From a virus: DNA of 55,933 nucleotides. A program made the translations under genes and the position numbers. Every line of letters begins with the position of its first letter. The first letter of the stretch is position 1. The notes beneath the pieces were generated by a model that was given only the letters and a program-made list of their open reading frames with translations, was not told the origin of the DNA and searched no databases. Below are positions 4,130-55,933 of the stretch, one piece after another. The DNA lies in IMG/VR virus record IMGVR_UViG_3300032331_000244, positions 1-55,933 of that record, one strand, 5' to 3'.

Positions 4130-4158
4130 TTGACATTAAATGGTTCCTGTGTTATAAT
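4130..4158 (+). promoter_or_regulatory. Perfect sigma-70 type promoter
   Basis: TTGACA (4130-4135), a 17-bp spacer and TATAAT (4153-4158) match the bacterial housekeeping consensus at every position. Transcription should start near 4165, giving a leader of about 24 nt with GGAG (4179-4182) before the ATG at 4189. It should be read by unmodified host polymerase and so act early. Confidence 0.9.
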
Positions 4159-4188: not shown

Positions 4189-5352
4189 ATGGCTAGAAAA
4201 CCGACAGAAGATCAGTTTGTAAAAGCACTCAACCCCCGGGATGCTGATACAAAATACATGGGTGAAGAACCCTTCTTCCCAATTCAGCCCGATACTGAAC
4301 AACGATTCTCGGCACTCGCCCGTAGTTTCACGTGGTACACTCGGTTCTACACTAAAAAAGATGCAAAAGAACTATTGTGCCAATATCTAGATTATAACAA
4401 ACGCACTGATGAGGCTAAGCTACTTAGAAAAGTACATGAAAGCGAATTCATTTTGACATTGTGCTGGGTATCACGCATGACAATGCGCGGCCTAGAATTG
4501 ACCGAGCATGAAGAACTCACCCTTCAAAATGAAATCAAGCGATTGGTTAAGACACTAACCGAAACGGAAGTAAAAACTAGTCAAACTAGTATTGTAAAAG
4601 AAGAAACTGTATCCACTCGCCCCAACATTCAGGAAATTTTGAAAGAAAAAGCACGAGATGCCGCAGGTGAAATGGAAGGGATGATTGACGATTTTGTTAC
4701 TAAAGGCAAAGCGTCAGAAAAGACAGTTGATATTGTAGCAAAATACAATGTCATGCCGCAACATATCCCAATCATTGTTGAAATCTGGAAACGCAAGCAA
4801 GATGAATTCCAGCGTCTAAGTGATGGTGACGAGTCGTTGAAAGAGGGTTATGCGTTTCTAGGTAAGATTCAGATTCGTAACATTCTGAAATTCATTGACG
4901 GTGTGCTAGGTGACCTGAACAGTTACATTAGCATTAAGAAAGCAAGCAAGGCTCCGCGTAAACGCAAAGCAGTCCCTGTAGAAAAGATTGTTGCTAAACT
5001 TAAGTACTTGAAATTGTTTAAGGATGTAGCAAGTAAGCTAGATTTGGTAAGTGTGCATCCCACAAAACTTCACGGTGCAAGTGAGGCGTGGGTTTACGAT
5101 ACAGGTAAGCGTAAACTGCATCACTATATTGCTGACGAGTATAGCAAAGTGTTCAGTATCAAGGGAAACACCCTGTTAGGATTTGATGCGAATACTAGCG
5201 AAATGAAAACATTGCGTAAGCCCGGTGAGCAAATTAAGGAAGTGATGGGTAGCAAGCCTGCGGCACGTAAGTATTTCAAAGATATCAAAGCAGTAGGTGC
5301 AGTTCCGAATGGAAGATTTAACGAGAATATGATTATTTTGAAAGCGTTTTAA
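4189..5352 (+). CDS. Conserved phage protein of unknown function
   Basis: A 387-residue, Lys-rich soluble protein with no signal peptide or membrane segment. It is mostly helical in appearance. A helical N-terminal part (residues 40-115) is followed by a Glu/Lys/Thr-rich linker (about 118-140), a second helical region, a basic patch 'KAPRKRKAVP' near residue 258, and a C-terminal beta-rich part (about 285-387) with 'GASEAWVYDTGKRKLHHY'. The basic patch and fold would suit nucleic-acid binding, but no catalytic motif was recognised. It is driven by the best sigma-70 promoter in the window, so early expression and a host-takeover or replication role are likelier than a structural one. The following small gene begins 1 nt after its stop. 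Confidence 0.6.
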   Translation: MARKPTEDQFVKALNPRDADTKYMGEEPFFPIQPDTEQRFSALARSFTWYTRFYTKKDAKELLCQYLDYNKRTDEAKLLRKVHESEFILTLCWVSRMTMRGLELTEHEELTLQNEIKRLVKTLTETEVKTSQTSIVKEETVSTRPNIQEILKEKARDAAGEMEGMIDDFVTKGKASEKTVDIVAKYNVMPQHIPIIVEIWKRKQDEFQRLSDGDESLKEGYAFLGKIQIRNILKFIDGVLGDLNSYISIKKASKAPRKRKAVPVEKIVAKLKYLKLFKDVASKLDLVSVHPTKLHGASEAWVYDTGKRKLHHYIADEYSKVFSIKGNTLLGFDANTSEMKTLRKPGEQIKEVMGSKPAARKYFKDIKAVGAVPNGRFNENMIILKAF

Positions 5353-5353
5353 A

Positions 5354-5542
5354 ATGCAAAAGAAAGAAGTAAGAGATCGTATGTCTGAAATAATGGTCTT
5401 GATCGACAAGTCAATTGAATTGACTGATGATAGGAATGAAATGCTAATGTTAGCCTGTTGTATGCTACAGCGTACAAATGAAATTTTTAACAGCACATTA
5501 GGTGTTGAAGGTAGAAAACAAATGTTTAAGGATTATGTATGA
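5354..5542 (+). CDS. Small helical protein of unknown function
   Basis: A 62-residue, helical, Met- and Glu-rich protein starting 1 nt after the upstream stop. It overlaps the MazG-like gene by 4 nt (ATGA-type junction), so it is almost certainly translationally coupled. It has no signal peptide, Cys pair motif or known catalytic signature. Its place between an early unknown and a nucleotide pyrophosphohydrolase is the only hint. The uninterrupted frame and tight coupling support it being real. Confidence 0.6.
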   Translation: MQKKEVRDRMSEIMVLIDKSIELTDDRNEMLMLACCMLQRTNEIFNSTLGVEGRKQMFKDYV

Positions 5543-5985
5543 AGATTGATTTAAATAAATACCAAGAGTTTGTCGCGGCAGTTACTAGTGAGACTAGTAC
5601 TAACTTGACTGCATTCATGGATACATGCGATAGGATTGATGCTAACTACGAACTAGATGCATCAGACAATCAAATGAAGTATGGCCCTGATATCAATGTG
5701 CCACTGTTAATCACTGCATGTTTCGGTTTAGCCGCAGAAAGTGGTGAGTTTATTGAAGTGCCCAAGAAGATACTTTTTCAAGGAAAAGCACTTACCGATG
5801 ATGCTGTTTATCATATGAAACGAGAATTAGGCGATGTTATGTGGTATTGGATTAATGCTTGTCGTGCATTGAACCTAGACCCTAACGAAGTGATTGCCGA
5901 GAATATTCGCAAGCTAGAATCACGCTATCCCGGTGGACAGTTTGATGCACACTACAGCGAGAATCGCAAAGACGGCGACTTGTAA
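5539..5985 (+). CDS. mazG: MazG-like nucleotide pyrophosphohydrolase
   Basis: A 148-residue all-alpha NTP pyrophosphatase of the MazG/dUTPase-like superfamily. The metal-binding pairs are visible: ExxE at residues 67-70 (AAESGEFIE context) and ExxD at 96-99 (KRELGDVMWYW), followed by the typical 'NLDPNEVIAENIRKLESRYP' helix and loop. Such enzymes hydrolyse (d)NTPs to NMP and PPi. In phages they are thought to adjust nucleotide pools or, more debatably, the host alarmone level. It overlaps the preceding gene by 4 nt and ends just upstream of the regulatory hairpin before gp13, so its early transcript may read into gp13. The family call is firm; the substrate is unknown. Confidence 0.88.
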   Translation: MKIDLNKYQEFVAAVTSETSTNLTAFMDTCDRIDANYELDASDNQMKYGPDINVPLLITACFGLAAESGEFIEVPKKILFQGKALTDDAVYHMKRELGDVMWYWINACRALNLDPNEVIAENIRKLESRYPGGQFDAHYSENRKDGDL

Positions 5986-5998
5986 TACTAGGACAAGT

Positions 5999-6032
5999 GT
6001 GTTACCTGATAAATAGTATTATTAGGTAACAC
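5999..6032 (+). promoter_or_regulatory. Late promoter inside a ribosome-site-hiding hairpin (gp13)
   Basis: GTGTTACCT (5999-6007) is the exact reverse complement of AGGTAACAC (6024-6032), and the 16-nt loop contains the late promoter GATAAATA (6008-6015). The 3' arm holds the only Shine-Dalgarno-like AGG (6024-6026), 8 nt before the gp13 ATG (6035). RNA reading through from mazG would fold and hide it. RNA starting at the late promoter (about 6021) lacks the 5' arm and should be open. T4 uses this logic at genes such as e and soc. Confidence 0.75.
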
Positions 6033-6034
6033 TT

Positions 6035-6832
6035 ATGTCAACATATCCAACCGCTAGTCCTCTTTCTACCCCAACTGGTTTAACCTTATCAGAGTTAAAA
6101 GAGTTACTATTTACCAATCTTAGATATCGTCTTGGTGACGGAATCATTGATATTGAATTGGATCCTCAGCATTATGAGGCAGCGTACAATTACGCTATTA
6201 AGGTCTATCGTCAACGGGCACAAGCGGCAACGGAAGAATCTTATATTCTAATGACCATTGAGAAGAATGTAGATACTTACACTCTCCCTGCTGAGTTTAT
6301 TAATGTAAGAAGTATTTTCCGTAGAACAATCGGGTTAGAAACAGGTCCATCAAGCAGCAGTTTTGACCCGTTCAGTAGTGCTATTTTGAACACATATCTT
6401 CTCAACTATAACTATGCAGGTGGTATGGCAACATATGACTTTTATGCTGGTTATGTTGAGTTAGCAGCACGTATGTTCGGTGGTTATGTAACATACACAT
6501 TCAATCCAGTGTCTAAAGTATTGCGTATTGTTCGTGATCCAAAAGGATCCGGTGAGCGTGTATTGATATGGGCCGATGTACAAAAGACAGAAGAAATACT
6601 ATTACAGGACCCAGGTGCTGGTGTATGGATTGGTGACTTCATTCTAGCTAATCTTAAATTGATTATAGGTGAAGCCCGTGAGAAGTTTGGAACTATCGCA
6701 GGTCCAGGTGGTGGTACAACATTGAATGGTACTGCTATGAAAGCAGAAGGCAAAGCTGCAATGGAATTATTGATTGAAGAATTGAAGAAATATGTAGATT
6801 ACAGTCAACCATTGACATGGGTACAAGGCTAA
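6035..6832 (+). CDS. 13: Neck protein, T4 gp13-like
   Basis: A 265-residue protein matching the gp13 head-tail neck family. The 'LTLSELKELLFTNLRYRLGDGIIDIELDPQHYEAAYNYAIKVYRQRA' opening is typical, with 'NVDTYTLPAEFINVRSIFRR' and a C-terminal 'LLIEELKKYVDYSQPLTWVQG'. In T4, gp13 and gp14 bind the portal after DNA packaging and form the tail-docking platform. Here gp13 lies on the plus strand while gp14 and gp15 lie on the minus strand 2 kb away, unlike the T4 order 13-14-15. Expression appears controlled by the hairpin and late promoter immediately upstream. The weak AGG ribosome site 8 nt before the ATG fixes this start. Confidence 0.8.
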   Translation: MSTYPTASPLSTPTGLTLSELKELLFTNLRYRLGDGIIDIELDPQHYEAAYNYAIKVYRQRAQAATEESYILMTIEKNVDTYTLPAEFINVRSIFRRTIGLETGPSSSSFDPFSSAILNTYLLNYNYAGGMATYDFYAGYVELAARMFGGYVTYTFNPVSKVLRIVRDPKGSGERVLIWADVQKTEEILLQDPGAGVWIGDFILANLKLIIGEAREKFGTIAGPGGGTTLNGTAMKAEGKAAMELLIEELKKYVDYSQPLTWVQG

Positions 6833-6864
6833 CCTAAATGCTTTATATTGTCATGTCCCTGTAA

Positions 6865-6870
6865 TATAAT
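6865..6870 (+). promoter_or_regulatory. Possible sigma-70 -10 element for dNMP kinase
   Basis: A TATAAT lies 22 bp before the ATG. The hexamer 17 bp upstream (TTTATA, 6842-6847) is a poor -35, and the TTGTCA at 6848-6853 is too close (11 bp). It could be a middle promoter needing an activator. AGGAG (6881-6885) is a good ribosome site for the ATG at 6892. Confidence 0.4.
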
Positions 6871-6891
6871 AAGTACTTATAGGAGCATTAC

Positions 6892-7551
6892 ATGATTATA
6901 GGTATCACTGGTTTAATTGGTTCAGGCAAAGACACAATTGCTGATTATCTGACAACTTACCAGGGATTCAAACGAGTTAGTTTTGCTGCTAGTCTTAAAG
7001 ATGCAGTAGCAGCAGTCTTTGGTTGGGACCGAGAATACTTAGAAGGTACAACAAAAGCTAGCCGAGTGTGGCGTGAACAAAAAGACGAGTGGTGGAGTAA
7101 TCGTTTAGGAATGGACATTACACCTAGATGGATACTACAGTATTGGGGCACAGATGTATGCCGCAATCATTTTCACAATGATATTTGGGTAGCAAGTGTA
7201 GAACACAAATTAATAAATACCAAAGAAGATATTGTAATTACAGACTGTAGATTTAGTAATGAAGTCGCTGCTATCAAAAATGCAGGTGGCGTGGCACTTA
7301 GGGTAAAGCGTGGTCCTGACCCAAAATGGTATGATGCTGCGGTAGCATATAATAGAGGACCAGATGGGAATAGTAGTTGGTCAGTAAGCAAAACTAAACT
7401 AGATAGATTAAAAATTCATGCTAGCGAGTATAGTAGTATAGGATTAAAATACGATTACATTGTTGAGAATAATGGTACAATTGACGAGTTACACAATCAG
7501 ATTTACGAGATTGTTAATAGTCAATCTCTAAATCTCCCCGACGCCATGTAA
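6892..7551 (+). CDS. 1: Deoxynucleoside monophosphate kinase (T4 gp1-like)
   Basis: A 219-residue P-loop kinase. The phosphate-binding loop GLIGSGKDT (residues 7-15) has the Lys-Asp-Thr typical of T4 gene 1 dNMP kinase. Later 'RWILQYWGTDVCRN' and 'DIVITDCRFSNEVAAIKNAGG' match the nucleotide-binding lid and DxR region of that family. It would phosphorylate dNMPs, including those from host DNA breakdown, to dNDPs for phage replication. It is transcribed from its own weak promoter between two late genes. Its last 38 bp overlap, tail to tail, with the leftward HNH-type gene. The family call is firm. Confidence 0.85.
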   Translation: MIIGITGLIGSGKDTIADYLTTYQGFKRVSFAASLKDAVAAVFGWDREYLEGTTKASRVWREQKDEWWSNRLGMDITPRWILQYWGTDVCRNHFHNDIWVASVEHKLINTKEDIVITDCRFSNEVAAIKNAGGVALRVKRGPDPKWYDAAVAYNRGPDGNSSWSVSKTKLDRLKIHASEYSSIGLKYDYIVENNGTIDELHNQIYEIVNSQSLNLPDAM

Positions 7552-11592: not shown

Positions 11593-11624
11593 AGATAACC
11601 CCTTAGGGGGTTATCTGTTTATTT
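11593..11624 (+). terminator. Rho-independent terminator after the tail sheath gene
   Basis: AGATAACCCC (11593-11602) pairs exactly with GGGGTTATCT (11607-11616) over a 4-nt loop, followed by GTTTATTT. It starts 8 nt after the sheath stop and is followed at once by a new late promoter, so sheath and tube genes are separately tunable. Confidence 0.85.
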
Positions 11625-11626
11625 AA

Positions 11627-11634
11627 GATAAATA
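11627..11634 (+). promoter_or_regulatory. Late promoter for the tail tube gene
   Basis: GATAAATA lies 22 nt before the gp19 ATG (11657), with a strong AGGAG ribosome site (11643-11647) in the short leader. It is placed directly after the sheath terminator. Confidence 0.65.
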
Positions 11635-49796: not shown

Positions 49797-49827
49797 GATA
49801 AATACTCTATTAATAATGGAGTATTTA
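49797..49827 (+). promoter_or_regulatory. Late promoter forming the 5' arm of a ribosome-site-hiding hairpin
   Basis: GATAAATA (49797-49804). TAAATACTC (49799-49807) is the exact reverse complement of GAGTATTTA (49819-49827), with an 11-nt loop. The Shine-Dalgarno GGAG (49818-49821) lies at the start of the 3' arm, 8 nt before ATG 49830. Late RNA (start about 49810) lacks the 5' arm and is free; read-through RNA from the dnaJ-clpA operon is predicted to be blocked. Confidence 0.7.
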
Positions 49828-49829
49828 CC

Positions 49830-49997
49830 ATGGCAAAGATTGTAGAAGATGTAGTAGTCATCAAATTTAGTAAAATCGTTAAAGATTCAGACACCGACAA
49901 TGGTGGACTTGTAGGTGCAGATGTTCAAGTTGCACTAGAGCAAGTTGCACAAGAATTAGTCGGTGAAAGTATTGTAGTAGAAGTGGTACGAGCATAA
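49830..49997 (+). CDS. Very small late protein (55 aa)
   Basis: A 55-residue acidic protein, MAKIVEDVVVIKFSKIVKDS onward, ending VGESIVVEVVRA. It alternates beta-strand and helix, with no Cys and no membrane segment. It is supported by a dedicated late promoter/hairpin, a GGAG ribosome site and a TAATG junction with the next gene (49997). I associate small proteins of this type with T4-like virion gene clusters; the function is unknown. Its regulated ribosome site suggests that early synthesis is harmful or wasteful. Confidence 0.7.
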   Translation: MAKIVEDVVVIKFSKIVKDSDTDNGGLVGADVQVALEQVAQELVGESIVVEVVRA

Positions 49998-51697: not shown

Positions 51698-51722
51698 AAA
51701 TATTTCATACCCCTCTTCCTGA

Positions 51723-51730
51723 TGTAAATA
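51723..51730 (+). promoter_or_regulatory. Possible degenerate late promoter (TGTAAATA)
   Basis: TGTAAATA differs from TATAAATA at one position and lies 24 nt before ATG 51755, with AAGAGGA (51743-51749) as ribosome site. It is plausible in position but weak in sequence. Confidence 0.3.
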
Positions 51731-51754
51731 ATTATATCTTAACAAGAGGACCAT

Positions 51755-52684
51755 ATGGCAACAAGAAAACCCAAAGTAACTAAAGAAGAAAAAACAGTAC
51801 CAGTAGAAATGGTACAAGAAATCGCTGCAAATGCGGCAGCAGAGCAAGCTGCAAAAACAGATGCTCCAGCAGACCAAGCACCACAAGCTGGTCAAGTACA
51901 AGTAAATGTAGATTTCTTGCGTACAACCAAAGTGCATATCGCTATGCCATGTTATGGTGGTATGTTGACTGAATCCACATTTATGAGTTTCATTAAATGG
52001 GCTAACACAGCCCGTCAATTAAACATTGACTGGACATTGGAAACAATGGTCAACGAAAGTCTTATCAGTCGTGCCCGTAACACACTAACTGCTAAGTTCT
52101 TAGACATGCCAGATGCAACACACTTATTCTTTGTTGACGCTGACATTGGCTGGGAGCCATGGCATCTATTAGTATTATTGAACCGTGATGTTGATGTTAT
52201 CGGTGGATTGTATCCAATGAAGACTATGCCAATCAAATGGGTAGTTAACGGATTTGAAGGTGCTGAAGAAGGTCCAGACGGATTACAAGAAGTATCTAAA
52301 GCAGGCACAGGTTTCTTGTTAATGAAGAAGCATGTATTTGAAAAATTAAATTCACATCCTGCTGTTAAACAATACAAGAATGATATTGGACTTGATCCAA
52401 AATATGACCAACACTTGAAAACATATTTTGACACAGCAGTGCGTCAGAATCGCTACTACAGCGAAGATTGGACATTCTGTGAAAACTGGCGTGACTTAGG
52501 TGGACGCATCTGGATGGACAAGCGTGTATTATTGCGTCACAGTGGTAGTTATGTTTTCTGTATGGAAAATCAAGAACATCTGCTTAAGACAGTTGGACCA
52601 ATGTTCTTAGAACAACAACAAAGTCTGGGAATGAAATTAGTTGACAAAGATGGCAACGAAATCAAGTCAGTAAAAGCAGCGTAA
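51755..52684 (+). CDS. GT-A type glycosyltransferase
   Basis: A 309-residue protein. After an Ala/Glu/Lys-rich, probably disordered N-terminal ~50 residues, a glycosyltransferase domain begins with 'KVHIAMPCYGGMLTESTFMS'. 'NESLISRARNTLTAKFLD' follows, and the metal/UDP-sugar-binding D-x-D is DAD (128-130) in 'HLFFVDADIGWEPWHLLVLL'. 'GGLYPMKTMPIKW' and 'EDWTFCENWRDLGGRIWMD' are typical of the acceptor half in phage and Anp1-like enzymes. It may glycosylate phage DNA bases, virion proteins or host surface sugars; the target is not readable. A strong terminator follows. Confidence 0.78.
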   Translation: MATRKPKVTKEEKTVPVEMVQEIAANAAAEQAAKTDAPADQAPQAGQVQVNVDFLRTTKVHIAMPCYGGMLTESTFMSFIKWANTARQLNIDWTLETMVNESLISRARNTLTAKFLDMPDATHLFFVDADIGWEPWHLLVLLNRDVDVIGGLYPMKTMPIKWVVNGFEGAEEGPDGLQEVSKAGTGFLLMKKHVFEKLNSHPAVKQYKNDIGLDPKYDQHLKTYFDTAVRQNRYYSEDWTFCENWRDLGGRIWMDKRVLLRHSGSYVFCMENQEHLLKTVGPMFLEQQQSLGMKLVDKDGNEIKSVKAA

Positions 52685-52685
52685 A

Positions 52686-52709
52686 AAAAGCCCCGAAAGG
52701 GGCTTTTCT
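52686..52709 (+). terminator. Rho-independent terminator after the glycosyltransferase gene
   Basis: AAAAGCCCC (52686-52694), loop GAAA, GGGGCTTTT (52699-52707). It is 1 nt after the stop codon and 6 nt before the next late promoter. Confidence 0.9.
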
Positions 52710-54585: not shown

Positions 54586-54633
54586 GTTTCCATATTACGG
54601 TATTTTGATAAATACTCTATAACTTTGGGAAAC
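54586..54633 (+). promoter_or_regulatory. Late promoter with a possible flanking hairpin
   Basis: GATAAATA at 54607-54614, 23 nt before ATG 54638. The 14 bases GATAAATACTCTAT are identical to those at 49797-49810. GTTTCC (54586-54591) can pair with GGAAAC (54628-54633), which overlaps the GGGA ribosome site. The stem is only 6 bp with a 36-nt loop, so sequestration is less certain than at the two other genes. Confidence 0.5.
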
Positions 54634-54637
54634 CATC

Positions 54638-55933
54638 ATGAGATTTAAGCAAATAATAGAAACAACCACAGCAGGATCAGTCGCAACCGTAGCAAAGCCT
54701 ATGATGACTCAAACCCGTGAAAATGTCAATGTTCCAGGACTAAAACCCGTAAAACAATTAATGAAAGGGAAGCCTAACAAGAAAGGTCCTTACGCTAATA
54801 GCATTACAGAAAGCAAAGTCAAAGAACTAACAATAGATTTAAAAGAGTTAACTACTGCTGAATTTCAAAAGAAATATGGAAAAACAAAAGCTGAAATCAA
54901 AGCAAGCATGACGGCAGTTAACGAAGATGATTTAGCAGAACAAGATTTAATCGTTATTCCAGGTCAAGGCAGATTAAGAAGAACCGGATTCGTTAAGCAT
55001 GATATGGATCAAGGTGAACATGAAGGACACACATTAAAGAACAGTCTACACACTATTGCCCGTGCTGCTAGTGAATTAGATGAGAGATTATCTGTTCAAT
55101 CTGAATTCCCTGAGTGGGTATCAGAGAAGATTGGCGCAGCAAAAAATATGATGGTTACTGTAATGGATTATCTAGTCAGCAGCCAAGAGATGCAACATGA
55201 TAGTGATGCCATGAATGAAGGCTCACAAAGAGTTGATTCACTTGTTACTGACGCATTGAAAGTAATGAAGGGTCCAGAAATAAGTGATGCTGTATTAGCG
55301 TTAAAGAGAGTATTAGGCGACAGAGCATATAATGAACGCCGCGGCTTTTATAGTTTCTATGTTGACCAAATACATGATATGTATAATCAGCAAAATATTA
55401 ATGAACTTAGTTCTGGTCTCTTGGGAAGAGCCGCAGAATTGGCTAAAAACAAAAGAGATCAAGCAATGGAGCCTGAGTTACATAATGCATTAGGTGGCGG
55501 TTATATGAATCCATTAGCAACACATTATGATGATGTATCACAAAAAATAAACAATAGGGCAGGACAAGTAAGAAAAAAAGAAACAATACAAAAAATCGCT
55601 TCTAAAATTGCTTCTCCGGCGGTGATGCGTAAGATGGGTATTACTGAAGGCGAAGTAAGCACTAGCAACTTACGCACAATGTATGACTTAGCTAGAATGG
55701 CTAAAAATTACTGTAGCCCTGAAGGACAAGAAGCACTTACTGAATTGTTAAAAATTCTTAAATGGTATATGGATCAAGCAGAGCAAGGTGTGGCGGAAGG
55801 TGACATGTACGGTGATGCAGAAGTAAGTTGGGAAAAAGGCGGTCGTAGAGCGCCAACTGGCGCATTCAGAAATCCAAACTTTGGTAACGTACTTCAAAAA
55901 AGTGTAAACAAACACAATAAAGCTATAGTTAAA
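54638..55933 (+). CDS. Large modular head-internal candidate (partial, runs off the window)
   Basis: The frame is open for 432 codons to the end of the window. The start MRFKQIIETTTAG is again a short Lys/Ile helix ending in I-x-E (6-8). Further (L/I/V)-x-E sites occur: ITES 56-59, ITEG 335-338 and VAEG 385-388. The last is in the 'EQGVAEG' context shared with the 52725 protein ('KQGVAEN', 'QQGVAEE'). One recognisable module is 'GEHEGHTLKNSLHTIARAAS' with 'FPEWVSEKIGAAKNMM' (about 126-175), a helical unit I associate with internal proteins of aquatic T4-like phages. No enzyme domain is visible in the available part. The ATG has GGGA 8-11 nt upstream and its own late promoter. Confidence 0.6.
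   Translation, partial: MRFKQIIETTTAGSVATVAKPMMTQTRENVNVPGLKPVKQLMKGKPNKKGPYANSITESKVKELTIDLKELTTAEFQKKYGKTKAEIKASMTAVNEDDLAEQDLIVIPGQGRLRRTGFVKHDMDQGEHEGHTLKNSLHTIARAASELDERLSVQSEFPEWVSEKIGAAKNMMVTVMDYLVSSQEMQHDSDAMNEGSQRVDSLVTDALKVMKGPEISDAVLALKRVLGDRAYNERRGFYSFYVDQIHDMYNQQNINELSSGLLGRAAELAKNKRDQAMEPELHNALGGGYMNPLATHYDDVSQKINNRAGQVRKKETIQKIASKIASPAVMRKMGITEGEVSTSNLRTMYDLARMAKNYCSPEGQEALTELLKILKWYMDQAEQGVAEGDMYGDAEVSWEKGGRRAPTGAFRNPNFGNVLQKSVNKHNKAIVK

Follow-up and report, generated by a model that had tools for sequence, protein, structure and literature searches.

A late promoter inside an RNA hairpin as a probable translational gate on the gp13-like neck gene of T4-related giant phages

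The window, by which the whole stretch of DNA analysed is meant, is a fragment, 55.9 kb long, from a T4-related phage with close relatives among IMG/VR contigs that reach 303 kb; a relative with an 88% identical gp13 sits on a 525-kb contig. The gp13-like gene in the window is a lone neck gene between nucleotide-metabolism genes, with mazG before it and a deoxynucleoside monophosphate (dNMP) kinase gene after it, an isolation that would account for the need of a gate on its expression. The features of the locus are as follows.

4130 to 4158, plus strand: sigma70 promoter (TTGACA-N17-TATAAT, 12/12, TG before the -10) heading the mazG operon (4189-5985); predicted source of early read-through RNA
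4189 to 5352, plus strand: first gene of the mazG operon (PHROG match phrog_11903, of unknown function)
5354 to 5542, plus strand: 62-aa open reading frame (ORF) without a family match
5539 to 5985, plus strand: mazG-like pyrophosphatase gene (PHROG 229, E 3e-44; Pfam MazG), adjoining the hairpin on its 5' side
5999 to 6007, plus strand: 5' arm of the hairpin, GTGTTACCT, a perfect complement of the 3' arm
6008 to 6015, plus strand: T4-type late promoter box GATAAATA, invariant in the 69-sequence alignment A2; 6008-6012 also pair with 6019-6023
6021, plus strand: predicted late transcription start, 3' of the 5' arm, placed from T4 late promoter spacing (-13 to -6)
6024 to 6032, plus strand: 3' arm of the hairpin, AGGTAACAC, holding the Shine-Dalgarno AGG (6024-6026)
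6035 to 6832, plus strand: gp13-like head-tail adaptor (neck) gene, 265 aa, ATG at 6035 (PHROG 211, head-tail adaptor Ad2, E 1e-23)
6892 to 7551, plus strand: dNMP kinase gene (PHROG 139, E 1e-50; Pfam DNMK)

Positions 5999-6032 read GTGTTACCT-GATAAATAGTATTATT-AGGTAACAC, the arms being the perfect 9-bp inverted repeat that the first-pass annotation had described around the late promoter. It is the sole perfect 9-bp inverted repeat (loop of 3-18 nt) enclosing NATAAATA in the window, and none arose in 40 dinucleotide shuffles. The feature had been drawn as 5999-6034; it holds through 6032, while the TT at 6033-6034 falls outside the stem. In RNA, the stem extends inward via G6008:U6023 and four A-U pairs to 14 bp with a 6-nt loop (6013-6018), the promoter sequence at 6008-6015 being split between stem and loop. 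RNA folding gave a minimum free energy of -18.0 kcal/mol (z -5.1), equalled by none of 200 shuffles. The AGG at 6024-6026 is, as had been claimed, the only one within Shine-Dalgarno range of the ATG at 6035, and the late 5' end anticipated near 6021 agrees with the start predicted when 13 nt are counted from the box's first base.

Occlusion of the ribosome-binding site (RBS) was measured as the free-energy cost of an unpaired Shine-Dalgarno sequence on RNA that includes the upstream region and on late RNA whose 5' end is set 13 nt beyond the late box's first base; these costs describe the RNA alone, with proteins, ribosomes, and co-transcriptional kinetics outside the calculation. The computed cost of freeing the gp13 AGG in the window drops from 11.8 kcal/mol on read-through RNA to 1.8 if the RNA starts at 6021, with medians of 11.7 and 0.9 kcal/mol over 78 distinct sequences. 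The gp13 site ranked second of 27 candidate starts in the window and first of 202 in the 263-kb relative G001, where a cost of 8 was reached by none of 77 control genes. Starts costing at least 7 in the window were those of gp13, a 55-aa gene at 49830, a gene at 51755, and the kinase at 6892, and all four have promoter-like sequence inside the hairpin. When calibrated on T4, the measure gave 14.2 and 12.9 for gene e, falling to 3.6 and 0.7 on late RNA, and similar drops for I-TevI (11.1 to 0.8), I-TevII (11.3 to 0.3), gene 49 (7.5 to 0.9), and gene 26 (10.4 to 0.0). It did not flag soc, a published case, and is thus incomplete. These costs, together with the conserved pairing described below, support the earlier proposal that RNA arriving from the mazG side would be untranslatable and late RNA translatable.

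Conservation was examined in 79 distinct upstream sequences from three scans of viral contigs, 69 of which have the late box and no non-coding insertion between mazG and gp13. The first-pass annotation had named loss of pairing in close relatives as refuting its claim; a stem over the AGG is possible in all 69 of these sequences, although it is weak in about six (L159, L194, L170, L171, L181, and L096; occlusion of 3.7-5.4 kcal/mol). In a structure-blind MAFFT alignment (A2), standard pairs occupy 87.9% of pair cells, and sliding the partner by 1-3 columns leaves no more than about 60% of cells paired. Both partners have changed in 57 cells, against 21.2 in shuffles (0/500 reaching the observed count). 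The arms differ among relatives while remaining complementary, as in GTTACCT..AGGTAAC, GTTTCCTGATA..TATCAGGAAAC, GTTCTTAGATA..TATCTAGGAAC, and GATTACCTGATAA..TTATCAGGTAATC. The check that had been called for, whether pairing is kept through compensatory changes, was run on the gp13 tree, where about 21 branches carry such two-sided changes, a single pair accounting for nine. Many of the loci are closely related and come from metagenomes that overlap; sequence duplicates were discarded, and counting on the tree lessens, without abolishing, this dependence. The outer pairs of the stem are less constant than the rest, as expected if only the hiding of the AGG matters.

A chance inverted repeat, or one kept only through complementarity between promoter flank and RBS, might be invoked given that the CCT 5' of the promoter and the AGG of the RBS are complementary by composition. 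The compensatory changes over 69 distinct sequences, with 0/500 shuffles comparable, and the recurrence of the hairpin in distant jumbo phages leave this reading with a vanishingly small likelihood, and by ordinary standards it is already refuted by the covariation. It is also highly improbable that the palindrome acts as DNA, namely as an operator bound by a dimeric protein that represses or activates the late promoter. A DNA palindrome would likewise keep two-fold symmetry, and this one is centred on the promoter; the arm sequence nevertheless varies widely with complementarity kept, which a sequence-specific operator would not tolerate. Loop length varies as well, and no palindrome is seen at the other late promoters of the window. 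On the plus strand, G-U pairs outnumber A-C mismatches by 51 to 10 (19 to 10 without the promoter-G pair), as expected for RNA. It is the arm turnover and the G-U excess that set the operator reading aside.

Sequences that do carry an insertion between mazG and gp13 form a separate group. An apparently undescribed, structured non-coding element of ~430 nt (L041:1130-1530, L058:2510-2960, and about 60 other loci) lies nearly always between these two genes, with other contexts in L219, L225, L251, and L261; compensatory changes were found in 25 of its 75 predicted pairs. It is absent from the window and from G001, and Rfam returned nothing above gathering scores for either the element or the window. 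A weak gp13 hairpin usually has this element before the gene, and the hairpin is weak where the element is present, with a median cost of 3.5 vs 11.7 kcal/mol (33 vs 72 distinct sequences; Mann-Whitney p 5e-11, uncorrected for relatedness). Costs of at least 8 still occur in five of the 33 element-bearing loci (L223, L249, L246, L263, and L260), hence element and strong hairpin do not strictly exclude each other. The distribution of the element over the gp13 tree is patchy (5 parsimony changes), and the three element loci that could be checked for the early promoter (L042, L051, and L059) still have it. We infer that the element may insulate gp13 from upstream RNA.

Beyond the close relatives, tblastn found gp13 at below 60% identity in 58 phage records. 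An equivalent hairpin precedes gp13 in eleven cultured jumbo phages (RaK2, Muenster, K64-1, 121Q, XaC1, Munch, fENko-Kae01, GAP32, CBB, Hallingskeid, and SNUABM_19), whose gp13 is 30-38% identical and whose upstream gene is co-directional. Each has a TCTAAATA, CCTAAATA, or TATAAATA box in the 5' part and the Shine-Dalgarno sequence in the 3' arm. For ten of the eleven, read-through RNA gave costs of 11.7-15.6 and late RNA costs of 0.1-3.0, SNUABM_19 being assigned by fold only. A strong hairpin is absent from gp13 in four phages with a divergent upstream gene (Atu_ph07, Phosso, SCTP-2, and Vibrio 2.275.O); PA5oct has a co-directional upstream gene, yet no clear gp13 hairpin. An earlier paper on CBB (PMC5259590) predicted ATAAATA-type late promoters before structural genes of CBB and GAP32; hairpins go unmentioned in its main text. 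The annotated gp13 starts of RaK2 (L277) and 121Q (L287) lie inside the hairpin, and the position of the Shine-Dalgarno sequence suggests that the true starts are 12 nt (RaK2) and 15 nt (121Q) downstream. A further late gate may be present in GAP32, CBB, and SNUABM_19 (L288, L289, and L292), where [TC]ATAAATA and a CACCAT...ATGGTG-type hairpin stand before a small gene located after gp13.

These phages also bear on whether the hairpin is an intrinsic terminator of the mazG-operon RNA, with the late promoter inside it letting late RNA escape. A T run does follow the equivalent stem, just before the ATG, in XaC1, GAP32, CBB, SNUABM_19, and Munch. The stem in the window, however, is followed by TTATGTCAAC, without a T run or T-rich tract, and the terminator scan found nothing at this hairpin; relatives have ACACAT-ATG or AACTAAT-ATG after the stem, and the covarying 3' arm always holds the Shine-Dalgarno sequence. 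Termination is therefore rejected for the window, where we hold it to be improbable, and kept as a possible added role for some cultured phages: it may add to RBS hiding in those with the T run.

The likely source of read-through RNA is itself conserved. Wherever the first operon gene could be located in relatives (about 60 distinct), the promoter of the mazG operon scores 11-12/12 and keeps a spacing of 17 nt without exception, and the terminator scan saw no terminator-like site between mazG and gp13 in the window; with a sigma70 promoter upstream and no terminator before gp13, early read-through is expected. As to the late phase, a gp55-like late sigma factor was detected in six large relatives with T4 gp55 as the query (E about 1e-5), that of G001 matching PHROG 12791 at E 3e-73.

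On the mechanism proposed here, host sigma70 RNA polymerase would start early RNA at 4130-4158 and transcribe the mazG operon, and this RNA would run on into gp13. On the read-through RNA, 5999-6012 would pair with 6019-6032, a pairing with covariation support, and bury the AGG, so that gp13 would remain untranslated. Late in infection, polymerase with a gp55-type sigma factor would start at GATAAATA, with the RNA beginning near 6021; lacking the 5' arm, this late RNA would leave the AGG free and gp13 would be made. The hairpin is thus, with high probability, a translational gate that silences gp13 on early RNA and is relieved by an internal late start, a reading drawn from sequence and computed folds. 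We infer the early or late timing of the mazG operon and of the kinase from promoter type only.

The same hairpin might instead block gp13 translation from any upstream RNA, late RNA included, with its own promoter setting the amount of product, in which case dosage rather than timing would be served. A comparable arrangement occurs on the minus strand of G001 at 6085 (L195), where a perfect 10-bp repeat (AGTCCTTATT-GATAAATATATT-AATAAGGACT) hides AGGA before a 2018-aa ORF; the architecture is gp13-like, but it follows a gene with its own apparent late promoter, and a block on early RNA is therefore perhaps not the sole use of such hairpins. This case is an exception to a simple rule that would confine such hairpins to positions after non-late genes. 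Against dosage stands the operon upstream of gp13, which has a conserved sigma70 promoter and at whose head a late promoter was looked for and none was found. Dosage amounts to the same mechanism with a different purpose, which sequence alone cannot separate from timing; we consider it rather unlikely.

The early/late gate on gp13 may have a counterpart immediately downstream, at the kinase.

6858 to 6883, plus strand: second hairpin, with core arms 6858-6867 and 6873-6883, hiding the kinase AGGAG (6881-6885)
6865 to 6870, plus strand: TATAAT box of the kinase's own promoter, inside the second hairpin

This box is conserved, has a weaker -35, and belongs to a sigma70-type promoter, seen in 119 relatives besides the window (6858-6885). 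Over 90 distinct sequences with the box, the median cost of freeing the kinase Shine-Dalgarno sequence fell from 10.9 on upstream RNA to 1.0 when the RNA starts at its own promoter (7.2 and 0.2 in the window). Pairing stands at 94.9%, with 81 two-sided changes vs 26.8 in shuffles (maximum 41). The hairpin may keep the kinase silent on transcripts that enter it from gp13. RaK2, Muenster, K64-1, Munch, fENko-Kae01, Hallingskeid, and 121Q have in its place a terminator-like hairpin after gp13, annotated as a terminator in Muenster and Munch. The pattern suggests a reciprocal insulation of gp13 and the kinase. Whether two consecutive promoter-in-hairpin gates insulate neighbours of opposite timing, with gp13 and the kinase each translated only from its own promoter, is a proposition to which we would give even chances. 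Should the second, sigma70-type gate also work, the principle would cover not only the early block of late genes but also a late block of early genes.

Further candidates of this kind were seen elsewhere in the window.

49797 to 49827, plus strand: second late-promoter hairpin, GATAAATA at 49797-49804, arms 49799-49807 and 49819-49827 (z -5.5, cost 12.5)
54586 to 54633, plus strand: weaker candidate, GTTTCC/GGAAAC around GATAAATA at 54607-54614, before a gene at 54638 (opening cost 5.2 vs 2.2; z only -1.1)

The former hides the GGAG (49818-49821) of the 55-aa gene at 49830, the promoter itself forming the 5' arm, and a hairpin of this type is also found in G001 at 196108; the latter arrangement recurs in G001 at 203023. 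Another possible gate, with a variant promoter, is the CCTCTT/AAGAGG repeat at 51715-51757, which encloses TGTAAATA and belongs to the gene at 51755 (phrog_1574; cost 8.0). Strong terminator-like hairpins at 11593-11616 and 52686-52707 lie just 5' of late boxes at 11627 and 52713 and could be an alternative means of insulating late genes.

An RBS-hiding hairpin combined with an internal late start is documented for T4 e, soc, 49, and I-TevI, with about 100-fold repression reported for e (PMC3014915), which confirms the precedent that the first-pass annotation had named for e and soc; further cases comprise 39, 25, 26, segB, I-TevII/III, and Aeh1 mobE (PMC2988022). The device is not known for gp13, as the first-pass annotation had it, and no description of it, whether for gp13 or for jumbo phages, was found in the open-access literature searched, subscription papers lying mostly outside that search. 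T4 gene 13 has neither a late promoter nor a hairpin within 70 nt. The traits of a T4-type gate (a buried RBS, the placement of the late promoter, an upstream early promoter without a terminator, and conserved pairing) are found at the gp13 locus by sequence and computation, and the gp55-type sigma factor in the six large relatives. As far as sequence can tell, gp13 is a new gene for a known T4-type gate, conserved across many giant phages. A device known from a handful of T4 genes would thereby have been kept on a virion gene throughout a very broad range of giant phages, cultured ones included, and the gate shows how phages with dispersed gene order could hold a late gene within an early operon.

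The closest likeness is to T4 e, in which long early RNA likewise folds into a stable hairpin with the RBS in its 3' arm, the stretch encoding the 5' arm contains late promoters, and the metric takes similar values; e, however, is a lysis gene, whereas a neck protein is concerned here, and the window comes from a distant jumbo-phage lineage. Phages of the RaK2/121Q/GAP32/CBB type share ATAAATA-type late promoters and the equivalent gp13 hairpin with the window but differ in that the promoter itself is part of the 5' arm and a T run often follows the stem. T4 I-TevI and I-TevII and Aeh1 mobE likewise present a late gene in an early or middle unit with its RBS hidden unless transcription starts at an internal late promoter (PMC2988022); those genes encode homing endonucleases, whereas the gene here encodes a structural protein and the divergence spanned is far greater.
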